A stretch of DNA of 32,582 bases from Kiritimatiellia bacterium (GTDB lineage: Bacteria; Verrucomicrobiota; Kiritimatiellia; RZYC01): assembly GCA_028708815.1 (NCBI GenBank), contig JAQVYB010000021.1, positions 1-32,582 on the forward strand, written 5' to 3'. The notes beneath the pieces are model-generated. The model was given only the letters and a program-made list of their open reading frames with translations. It was not told the DNA's origin and searched no databases. The translations under genes and the position numbers were made by a program. Of the stretch, positions 1-21,809 are shown piece by piece (within the stretch, counting starts at the first letter, position 1; each line of letters opens with the position of its first letter).

Positions 1-1061
1 ATCTCTTCCGGGAGGCTGTTCGAGGTCCCATTCGGGTAAATACGGTCGGAATGACGTCCTTCGGGCTCAATAAAGACGTGGTGCGAGTCTTTGGAGGAGA
101 ATTTGACGATTTTATCCTCGATGGAGGGGCAATAGCGAACGCCGGTTCCGGTGATATCTCCGCCATAAAGGGCGCTTTTATTGAGGTTTTTAGCAATTAT
201 TTCGTGTGTTTGGTCGGTGGTATGCGTGAGGAAGCAAGGAATTTGGTTCCACCCGGGGGCCCATGGACGAAGACAGGACGAGGAGGAATGTTCCACGTGG
301 AACATAGGGGAATCCGGTGCGGGGCAGTTCGATTGTTCCATGTGGAACATGTGCCATTCTGCGGCGGCTTGTCGGGAGAGAAAGGGCGGCGGGGATTCGC
401 CGGGCTGTGGGGTCATGGCGTCGTAGTTCAGGCTATCCTTATGCAGGCGCGGGGGGGTTCCGGTTTTGAGTCGTTCGAGTTGAAATCCCATTTCCCGGAG
501 TTTTTCTCCGAGTTCCACTGCGGCTGGATCCTCCCAGCGTCCTCCGGGAATCTGCACTTTTCCTATATAGATGACGCCATTGAGGAAGGTTCCGGGGGTA
601 AGAATAACGCACCGTGCACGTAGTTGGGCGCCATCCTGCATGACGACGCCGACGACGACCCCATTTTCCACGAATGGTTGCGCCACCATACCGGAAAGGA
701 GCTTGAGTTTGGGTTGATTTTGGAGGATGGCGCTCATTCGGGCCGGATAGGCGGCCTTGTCGCACTGGATTCGGTTGGCCTGGACGGCGGGTCCTTTTCT
801 GGTGTTGAGTGTCTTGAATTGGATTCCGGTATAATCGGCATTTCGGGCCATTTCACCACCCAAGGCATCAATTTCGCGAACGATATGTGATTTGGCGATA
901 CCTCCGATGGAGGGATTGCAGGAGAGGCGCCCGACATCCTGTTCGTTCATGGTAATGAGGAGAGTTTCGGCACCCATGCGTGCCGCGATGAGAGCCGCCT
1001 CGCATCCGGCGTGCCCACCTCCAGCGACAATGACATCGAGTTGTTTTTCACCGTTTTTCAT
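1..1061 (-). CDS. mnmG: tRNA uridine-5-carboxymethylaminomethyl modification enzyme MnmG, N-terminal part (3' end outside window)
   Basis: MnmG (GidA) is the FAD-dependent partner of MnmE; together they modify the wobble uridine of certain tRNAs in the cytoplasm. Reading the minus strand from 1061 gives 353 codons with no stop. The FAD-binding GGGHAGCEAA motif is at residues 14-23, followed by the family motifs CNPSIGGIAK, LKTGTPPRL and YCPSIEDK. The start at 1061 follows AAGGG by 6 bases; an in-frame ATG at 1076 is possible but has no such site. Residues about 230-270, between PFLS and QIPCFLTHT, form a loop roughly 30 residues longer than in E. coli MnmG. This loop is coded by the DNA that carries two parS palindromes and contains the peptides MFHMEQ and MFHVEH. 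The gene points the same way as mnmE but is separated from it by a long repeat-rich spacer. Confidence 0.97.
   Translation of the reverse strand, partial: MKNGEKQLDVIVAGGGHAGCEAALIAARMGAETLLITMNEQDVGRLSCNPSIGGIAKSHIVREIDALGGEMARNADYTGIQFKTLNTRKGPAVQANRIQCDKAAYPARMSAILQNQPKLKLLSGMVAQPFVENGVVVGVVMQDGAQLRARCVILTPGTFLNGVIYIGKVQIPGGRWEDPAAVELGEKLREMGFQLERLKTGTPPRLHKDSLNYDAMTPQPGESPPPFLSRQAAAEWHMFHMEQSNCPAPDSPMFHVEHSSSSCLRPWAPGWNQIPCFLTHTTDQTHEIIAKNLNKSALYGGDITGTGVRYCPSIEDKIVKFSSKDSHHVFIEPEGRHSDRIYPNGTSNSLPEE
289..304. promoter_or_regulatory. parS, ParB binding site (perfect palindrome)
   Basis: TGTTCCACGTGGAACA is a perfect 16-base palindrome and matches the known chromosomal parS consensus, in the form used by pseudomonads. 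It lies inside the mnmG reading frame, where it encodes FHVEH. It is about 7 kb from dnaN, and parS sites are normally near oriC. parA and parB are not in the window; in many bacteria they lie just beyond mnmG. Confidence 0.88.
334..349. promoter_or_regulatory. parS, second ParB binding site (one central mismatch)
   Basis: TGTTCCATGTGGAACA differs from the site at 289-304 by one base in the central CpG. The two sites are 45 bases apart centre to centre, a multiple of three, so both are read in the same mnmG frame. The central change may lower ParB affinity; that is inference. Confidence 0.72.
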
Positions 1062-1415: not shown

Positions 1416-1433
1416 GCCGATCAGACGATCGGC
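1416..1433 (+). repeat. REP-like hairpin, copy 1
   Basis: The 18-base unit is stem GCCGATC, loop AGAC, stem GATCGGC, followed by GCTACCGGGC. Homology with copy 2 continues for about 45 bases after the hairpin, up to about 1480. Confidence 0.75.
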
Positions 1434-2417: not shown

Positions 2418-3791
2418 CTATTTCCCGATACAGAAACCTGCGAAGAGTTGATCGAGCAATTCCTCGTAATAGACGCGCCCGGTAATTTTTCCGATTTGTT
2501 CAATGGCGTCGCGGACATGGGTGGATATAAAGATGGTTTTTTCTTCTATTTGCTCTTTCATGAGCTGATCTGCCTGCTTGAGACTCCGCTGGGCCAGTTG
2601 GAGGAGATCGCGGTGTCGTTCCGAGATCACGGCATGTGGTTGATCCGGTAGATTAAATTCGGATGTAATGGTTTCGTAAATGCAGTTTTTCAGTCGTATG
2701 ACATCTTCATTGTTCAGGAGGGAACCTTCATACGTTCGATTTTTCGGTAGGTTTTCCGAATGATTGTATTTTTTTATATCTGTTTTATTTACAACGTATA
2801 ACAACTTATTTTGTTGAATTTTACGCCAGAATGCCTGCATTTCATCGTCCAGAGGTTGTGAGGCATCGAGGACGTGCAGGATAAGGTCGGCCTGCTGGAT
2901 GGTTTTGCGTGTTCTTTCGATGCCTTCGCGTTCGACGTGGCATTCGGTGGTTCTCATGCCGGCGGTATCGGTGAGGCGCAGAGGTATTCCGTGGAGGAGG
3001 ATGGATTCTTCGATGGTATCGCGTGTGGTTCCCGGGATGGGAGAGACGATGGCGCGCTCTTTATCGAGGAGACGGTTCAGGAGGGTTGATTTTCCGACGT
3101 TTGGCCGACCGATAATGGCTATGGAAGCCCCTTCGCGCAATATGTGGCCCTGCGGCCATGTTTTGAGAAGTCTTTCTATCTTGTTCATTATCAATATATT
3201 AAGTGTTTTTATTTCATCATAGACTGGTAAAAGCAGCTGTTCTTCGGAGAAGTCGAGTGTGGCTTCGAGATCGGCCAGGAGATGGATGAGGGCATCATAG
3301 ATTTCGTTGAACGCGGTGCTGAGTCCTCCTTCGAGTTGTTCGAGGGCCATGTTGGCCGCTGCTTCAGATTGGGCCTTGACGAGATCCTGTACGGCTTCTG
3401 CCTGCAGGAGGTCCAATCTTCCGTTTAGAAAGGCTCTTTTGGTGAATTCGCCGGGTTCGGCTGGTCGCGCGCCGGCGTCGAGGCATCGCCGCATGATGCG
3501 TGCGGCGGATATTCGCCCGCCGTGTCCCTGGATTTCGACCATTTCTTCGCAGGTATATGATTTTGGGGCCCGTAGAATCAGGAGTAGGACTTCATCGATG
3601 TCTTTGCCATCGGACCCCACGATATGGGCATAGAGCACGGTATTTGGTGTTGCGCCGGTCGGTTTTTTTGCAGAGCGGGAAATTTTTTCAGTAATGTTCA
3701 GAGCATCGGGTCCGGAGAGGCGGACGATGGAAATACATCCTTCGGATCCGGCGGTTGCGATGGCTGCGATGGTATCACTATCCGTGTTCAT
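2418..3791 (-). CDS. mnmE: tRNA modification GTPase MnmE
   Basis: MnmE is the GTPase partner of MnmG in making cmnm5U34 or mnm5U34 in tRNA. The 457-residue product has the usual length. An N-terminal tetrahydrofolate-binding domain (about 1-118) is followed by a helical domain and an inserted G domain with G1 GRPNVGKS (228-235), G2 TTRDT (255-259), G3 DTAG (275-278) and G4 NKTD (335-338). The protein ends in the conserved FCIGK, whose Cys is functionally important in this family. No clear ribosome binding site precedes ATG 3791. It lies on the same strand as mnmG. The two genes are often neighbours near the origin, but here the repeat-rich spacer separates them, so a joint transcript is not obvious. 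Confidence 0.98.
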   Translation of the reverse strand: MNTDSDTIAAIATAGSEGCISIVRLSGPDALNITEKISRSAKKPTGATPNTVLYAHIVGSDGKDIDEVLLLILRAPKSYTCEEMVEIQGHGGRISAARIMRRCLDAGARPAEPGEFTKRAFLNGRLDLLQAEAVQDLVKAQSEAAANMALEQLEGGLSTAFNEIYDALIHLLADLEATLDFSEEQLLLPVYDEIKTLNILIMNKIERLLKTWPQGHILREGASIAIIGRPNVGKSTLLNRLLDKERAIVSPIPGTTRDTIEESILLHGIPLRLTDTAGMRTTECHVEREGIERTRKTIQQADLILHVLDASQPLDDEMQAFWRKIQQNKLLYVVNKTDIKKYNHSENLPKNRTYEGSLLNNEDVIRLKNCIYETITSEFNLPDQPHAVISERHRDLLQLAQRSLKQADQLMKEQIEEKTIFISTHVRDAIEQIGKITGRVYYEELLDQLFAGFCIGK

Positions 3792-20940: not shown

Positions 20941-20958
20941 GCCGAACGTCTGTTCGGC
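20941..20958 (-). repeat. REP-like hairpin, copy 3
   Basis: On the minus strand, stem GCCGAAC, loop AGAC and stem GTTCGGC are followed by GGTCCCGG. The stem bases differ from the other copies but still pair. Confidence 0.65.
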
Positions 20959-21014: not shown

Positions 21015-21032
21015 GCCAATCAGACGATTGGC
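21015..21032 (+). repeat. REP-like hairpin, copy 4
   Basis: Stem GCCAATC, loop AGAC and stem GATTGGC are followed by GCTCCCGGG. Compared with copies 1 and 2, a G-C pair is replaced by an A-T pair. Confidence 0.75.
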
Positions 21033-21044
21033 GCTCCCGGGACT

Positions 21045-21062
21045 GCCAATCGTCTGATTGGC
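21045..21062 (-). repeat. REP-like hairpin, copy 5 (inverted to copy 4)
   Basis: This is the reverse complement of copy 4 (GCCAATC-GTCT-GATTGGC on the plus strand), 12 bases after it. The two together form a larger cruciform-capable unit, as in paired REP elements. Confidence 0.75.
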
Positions 21063-21265: not shown

Positions 21266-21526
21266 TTAGGCCACCGCTTGTTCTTTGATGTCCCAGCTGG
21301 GAAAAACCAAGACGGCGGGATGGCACTTGAGGGCTCTTGCGAGGACCTTTGCTCTTTCAACCCCAATAGGGATTCTGTCGTTCTCTATGCCGGAAATGGT
21401 GGATTGCGGCATTCCGGTGAGAGAGGCAAGCTCGTTCTGACTGAGCCCTTGAAGTTCGCGCATGATACGAACGGACTCGCCGACAGACACATCAATCGTC
21501 TTTTTCGCTTTTCTGAAATTCTTCAT
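21266..21526 (-). CDS. XRE-family antitoxin
   Basis: The product is the DNA-binding antitoxin that would neutralise the toxin coded just upstream and repress the operon. The 86-residue protein has a helix-turn-helix at about 18-72: LQGLSQNELASLTGMPQSTISGIENDRIP. The start, one base after the toxin stop, has GGAGAACGTGAA upstream inside the end of the toxin gene, so the genes are translationally coupled. Toxin-first order is that of HigBA-type modules. Confidence 0.88.
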   Translation of the reverse strand: MKNFRKAKKTIDVSVGESVRIMRELQGLSQNELASLTGMPQSTISGIENDRIPIGVERAKVLARALKCHPAVLVFPSWDIKEQAVA

Positions 21527-21527
21527 T

Positions 21528-21809
21528 TCACGTTCTCCTGTAATCGTGCGCGGTTATGTTGATCACCCGGGCGTAAAGTTTATTATCCTCAACCCTGTAA
21601 ATCAGTCGAAACTGTAACTCCAGTCGCGAAGATCGATGACCCAGCCACTGCCCCTTAAGGGCTTCATCATGGAAGCCTTTGATAAGCCTTAACCCTTCAG
21701 GGCCTGTGAGCTCAACAATATCTTTCCATTTCTCATAGCGCTTCAAAACCTCATACGGGATTTTCGGCAGGTTTCTAACCAATGTATGACTTTCATATAT
21801 TTCCCACAT
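21528..21809 (-). CDS. RelE/HigB-type toxin
   Basis: The product is a probable ribosome-dependent mRNA interferase. The 93-residue size fits the family. Motifs include RNLPKIPYEVLKRYEKWKDI at about 12-31, KGFHDEALKGQWLGHRSSRL and, near the C-terminus, FRLIYRVEDN with ITAHDYRR, the usual strand and terminal His region. No strong ribosome binding site precedes ATG 21809. An operator-like palindrome sits 16 bases upstream, and the antitoxin gene follows directly. Confidence 0.86.
   Translation of the reverse strand: MWEIYESHTLVRNLPKIPYEVLKRYEKWKDIVELTGPEGLRLIKGFHDEALKGQWLGHRSSRLELQFRLIYRVEDNKLYARVINITAHDYRRT

Follow-up and report, generated by a model that had tools for sequence, protein, structure and literature searches.

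The B. subtilis and Caulobacter parS consensus is TGTTTCACGTGAAACA. In M. xanthus the consensus is TGTTCCACGTGGAACG, the 14-bp core of which is bound by ParB in vitro (PMC3899335), and the usual chromosomal arrangement is an origin-proximal par operon (PMC7022226). Intragenic parS sites as such are already known: in P. aeruginosa nine of the ten parS sites are predicted to lie inside coding sequences, with parS1 and parS2 located in recF (PMC4368675, PMC5521831).

The window analyzed here is a stretch of 32,582 bases (bases 1-32582 of contig C118) from a 4.0-Mb draft genome of 272 contigs. Within the coding sequence of mnmG (gidA), which encodes the tRNA uridine-5-carboxymethylaminomethyl(34) synthesis enzyme, are two parS-type palindromes, the perfect one of which shares its 14-bp core with M. 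xanthus parS. From sequence comparison we consider it very probable that these are functional parS sites of a chromosomal ParABS system and hence predicted centromeres embedded in mnmG. Like the known chromosomal systems, the mnmG sites lie near the likely origin and the genome encodes a ParB and a Soj-type ParA. However, here there are one to three sites in a single coding sequence, at a protein position conserved across the lineage, and parA, parB and parS occupy three loci, in place of a par operon close to the origin. P. aeruginosa shares the intragenic location near the origin, but its parS sites are scattered over several genes whereas here essentially all of the sites are in one gene, are held by a lineage-specific insert and change reading frame between lineages. 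A literature search of partial coverage, which leaves a prior mention possible, gave no report of parS sites in Verrucomicrobia or within mnmG/gidA. Confinement of essentially all the parS of a lineage to the loop of one enzyme gene, in any frame and apart from parA and parB, appears to be undescribed.

Two parS-type palindromes within mnmG

The mnmG frame (3..1061, minus strand) is open from an ATG near base 1061 and leaves the window, and the contig, at base 3, such that the 3' part of the gene is missing. The 356-residue fragment matched TIGR00136 (mnmG_gidA) with an E value of 1.5e-123 and 413 bits, a score that falls short of the 525-bit cut-off only on account of the truncation at the contig end. 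The next gene (2418..3791, minus strand) is mnmE, which encodes the MnmG partner, a name given from the GTPase motifs GRPNVGKST and DTAGMR of the translated frame rather than from a family search.

The original prediction was of a perfect parS palindrome and a one-mismatch copy 45 bases apart in one reading frame, such that MnmG carries two MFH-x-E peptides, with the single-base difference falling in the central CpG. All of this was found in the sequence. The palindrome at 289-304 is a perfect 16-bp TGTTCCACGTGGAACA and reads MFHVEH on the minus strand, whereas that at 334-349, TGTTCCATGTGGAACA, has its one mismatch in the central CpG and reads MFHMEQ, the distance between the two being 45 bases start-to-start. 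Both are close to the TGTTYCACGTGRAACA-type 16-bp parS, one as a perfect palindrome and the other with the single central mismatch. Owing to that mismatch the 334-349 site may bind weakly to the predicted ParB, and one-mismatch sites of this kind are also present in the MnmG loops of relatives.

Allowing up to three mismatches to the canonical TGTTTCACGTGAAACA, the window contains two sites versus 0.13 expected, and in the entire 4.0-Mb draft genome these two are the only copies of GTTCCACGTGGAAC at one mismatch or fewer. Chance origin of the palindromes was ruled out by these expected numbers, by the genome-wide rarity and by the near-zero count of a control pattern. A misbinned contig was also ruled out because the feature recurs across dozens of independent genomes.

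Spread of the mnmG sites through the class and phylum

In a first search, nearly all of the related MnmG loci from named Kiritimatiellota and Verrucomicrobiota genomes had one exact copy or two in this loop. As this search had been partly seeded with the FHM peptide, it was repeated on 388 genomes drawn evenly from the phylum. Exact GTTYCACGTGRAAC was present in 223 of the 388, versus about 13 genomes, with one site each, for the reversed control pattern, and members of the class usually had exactly two sites. We read 130 mnmG loci in all. The loop contained an exact or one-mismatch site in 72 of 73 MnmGs of the class, a set biased toward genomes with a better MnmG match, and in 53 of 57 from other classes, a set mostly chosen among genomes known to have the motif.

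The sites were not only frequent in mnmG but largely restricted to it. In 70 genomes of the class, 105 of the 119 exact sites found genome-wide fall in the MnmG loop, and parS was present in 108 of the 116 class assemblies in which mnmG was found versus 2 of the 15 in which it was not (Fisher p = 6e-11). A total of 29 exact sites was counted on 20 complete chromosomes, each of them inside mnmG or no more than ~1.3 kb away, and 15 of the chromosomes have just one.

The enlarged MnmG loop

A phmmer alignment to E. coli MnmG (3g05) placed window MnmG residues 241-274, a total of 34 residues encoded by approximately bases 249..350 (minus strand), opposite a single E. coli residue. The net insert of ~33 residues, in agreement with the loop extension of about 30 residues originally claimed, holds both palindromes. 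The closest named relatives of this MnmG are from Kiritimatiellota, such as Pontiella sulfatireligans, together with metagenome-assembled genomes labeled 'PVC', Kiritimatiellae and Lentisphaerota. The AlphaFold2 model of the Pontiella protein has a mean pLDDT of 90, which falls to ~60 at residues 241-260, a segment lying between the two encoded sites and on either side of them, and depicts the insert as a flexible piece of a well-folded enzyme.

Loop length was counted from KTGTPPR to RYCPS. Loops having a site are 97-150 residues long, whereas those of 21 sister-lineage genomes lacking a site are 85-90 residues, and the sister lineages that lack a chromosomal ParB also lack mnmG sites. In other phyla the loop is usually 81 residues (80-91 in all but a few MnmGs) and parS, where present, is outside mnmG or at its ends. 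At loci such as L046, L080, L083, L053 and L070 parS occurs around mnmG/rsmG, at tens to hundreds of bases from mnmG, but lies outside the mnmG frame or at its ends and the loop has the short 81-residue form. Hence, the expectation that MnmG comparison would pair the longer loop with the palindromes was upheld.

The opposing possibility, that the loop is ancestral and conserved in genomes lacking the palindromes, failed for the most part although it retains some exceptions. Akkermansia-like genomes (family code f44, genus code g72, the name being inferred) have a 100-residue loop devoid of a site and carry parS at about MnmG residue 530-600. A site is also missing from a 98-residue loop of Aquificota and from a few loops of Verrucomicrobiota, and at locus L031 a site is found inside a loop of 82 residues that is not enlarged. 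Owing to these exceptions the sequences argue that loop enlargement and parS are linked, though not strictly.

The same exceptions bear on how the sites came to be there. They could be real parS sites that sit passively in mnmG, a gene near the origin having a tolerant loop, the loop not having grown to hold them. The Akkermansia-like genomes, with parS elsewhere in mnmG and none in the long loop, and the L031 site in its 82-residue loop would fit this scenario, as would a genome (G252) in which one of the three sites inside mnmG was made within the conserved GFxxER motif (a fourth site is 81 bases upstream). However, the longer loops track the sites closely, as given by the lengths above, and we regard passive residence as possible although doubtful. 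It differs from the preferred explanation, functional parS in a loop that grew to hold them, in cause alone and not in function.

Decayed sites were also seen. A 0.9-Mb genome without a ParB match (G057, locus L285) retains an FHVRQ remnant, TTTCACGTGAGGCAG, in a loop of 99 residues, and a second genome (G125, locus L287) has an FHARQ remnant in the loop. In the loops of L013, L009 and L015 the spacer separating the two parS sites has repeat-like residues (VQGSGFRVQGLGVGDQGS), which gives the impression that short repeats were added there.

Selection on DNA or on peptide

As most of the loop sites (166 of 181) share one frame, which reads FHVE, the conserved entity could be the peptide MFHVE(H/Q), a functional MnmG motif with the palindrome being a mere by-product of its encoding. 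The remaining 15 sites, from families f2, f5, f11, f13, f14 and f17, read as CSTWN or VPRGT, and in one genome (G081) a single 150-residue loop holds three sites, one in each reading frame. On an MnmG tree built with the loop columns left out, CSTWN requires four changes and VPRGT two. Moreover, codon choice is much too uniform for selection at the protein level: TTCCACGTGGAA encodes 174 of the 186 FHVE peptides versus 5.5 +/- 2.3 expected from the codon usage of each gene (counts that are non-independent owing to relatedness), and the flanking bases, mostly T before and A after, complete the 16-mer. Spacing and loop length vary freely, and the FHVE peptide is missing in lineages without ParB. 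Selection at the peptide level is therefore largely refuted by the three reading frames and the codon uniformity, and we give the peptide motif hardly any credence. Use of all three frames together with the uniform FHVE codons and flanks argues that selection is on the DNA and not on the peptide. The locus would be DNA having two jobs, encoding a protein and serving as the predicted centromere, that has been retained throughout a deep bacterial lineage, and the pattern replicates in all three frames.

ParA and ParB are encoded elsewhere in the genome

The original prediction called for parA and parB to be located beyond the window, and both were found on other contigs. A chromosomal-type ParB is encoded at G000:C260:41476-42000 (TIGR00180, E 3e-55). 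The best solved relative of this protein is Spo0J/ParB 1vz0 (E 4e-60) and it has the GERR motif. A Soj-type ParA is encoded at G000:C53:11121-11651 (PF13614, E 3.5e-58), so that parA, parB and the mnmG parS sites (contigs C53, C260 and C118) are on three separate contigs. The usual parA-parB operon near parS and oriC was seen neither in the contigs of this genome nor in any of the 12 complete relatives examined, in all of which parA and parB are at least 58 kb apart and both mostly far from parS. A second parA-parB pair lies side by side at G000:C176:20239-21491, apart from the chromosomal genes, and is perhaps another partition module of a plasmid or integrated element.

A ParB match exceeding the family cut-off was present in each of the 31 genomes having parS in mnmG versus 2 of 17 lacking it, a contrast that is phylogenetically clustered and in part phylogenetic. 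The two exceptions, G125 and G185, have ParB but no recognizable site in mnmG. Given that G125 has ParB and no exact site, its parS may have changed sequence. CACGTG is a common core of regulator sites, and the palindrome might for that reason be the target of some other CACGTG-binding protein. This seems most improbable to us, as the full 14-bp palindrome matches known parS and the presence of the site follows ParB.

The sites mark the likely replication origin

In six of six complete relatives the GC-skew minimum is at or near mnmG. In G381 and G184 the sign of the skew switches from minus to plus inside the 20-kb window that contains mnmG. For G018 and G232 the switch falls between adjacent samples at mnmG, and for G121 and G272 it is no more than ~200 kb away. 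In contrast, in four complete genomes (G184, G018, G272 and G232) the minimum and dnaA are separated by hundreds of kb or more, so that dnaA marks the origin poorly in this phylum and was rejected as a guide to it. The likely origin is marked by mnmG/parS and not by dnaA, which provides an origin marker for Kiritimatiellota/Verrucomicrobiota genomes that is independent of dnaA.

These positions also bear on whether the sites could be ParB-dependent operators of mnmG or its operon rather than centromeres. P. aeruginosa ParB represses promoters beside parS3 and parS4, and parS1 and parS2 are within recF (PMC5521831). However, in many genomes the mnmG sites are the sole exact sites on the chromosome, they are at the skew minimum as a centromere would be, and they lie well within the gene, away from the promoter. 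A role as operators in place of centromeres is thus improbable, although a side effect of the sites on mnmG expression is possible.

A model for a centromere within mnmG

For the preferred reading of the palindromes as parS, the data show the sequence and its conservation, selection at the DNA level, co-occurrence with ParB, the position at the skew minimum and the dispersal of parA, parB and parS, whereas ParB binding, segregation function and evolutionary order are inferred. ParB (contig C260) would nucleate on the mnmG palindromes and then spread, and the Soj-type ParA (contig C53) would segregate the ParB-parS complex, such that a stretch of mnmG coding sequence would double as the centromere of the chromosome. 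The ancestral state would have been the common bacterial mnmG-rsmG-parA-parB origin cluster, which was later broken up. In this scheme parA and parB would have moved off whereas parS remained at mnmG, inside the gene and for the most part in a surface loop of MnmG which is flexible and would tolerate any in-frame sequence. That loop would have lengthened to make room for one to three sites.

A more far-reaching proposal, which we put forward only tentatively and think more likely wrong than right, is that throughout the lineage the only centromere of the chromosome lies within an enzyme gene and that the MnmG loop evolved as an expandable carrier of parS in any frame. The centromere would thereby have been tied to a conserved origin gene once parA and parB, and in many cases dnaA as well, had departed from that region, and ParB loading might be coupled to mnmG transcription. 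How ParB would load, spread and segregate from within a gene that is transcribed, with parA and parB at other loci, is a question raised by this locus, and one that is testable given that culturable relatives exist.

Other repeats and genes in the window

The non-coding stretch of 1.3 kb between mnmG and mnmE contains a 118-nt direct repeat, the two copies of which (1503-1620 and 2203-2320) are 92% identical. A REP-like palindrome, GCCGATCAGACGATCGGC, together with variants having compensating changes (GCCAATCAGACGATTGGC), is present in five copies in the window (1416-1433, 1686-1703, 20941-20958, 21015-21032 and 21045-21062) versus 0.04 expected, and two of these copies are part of a 70-nt repeat located upstream of mnmG. 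At 21266-21809 (minus strand) a small HTH_3 gene adjoins a gene for a small YafQ/RelE-like protein, the toxin match being below the Pfam cut-off; from their sequences the two genes are likely to be a type II toxin-antitoxin pair.
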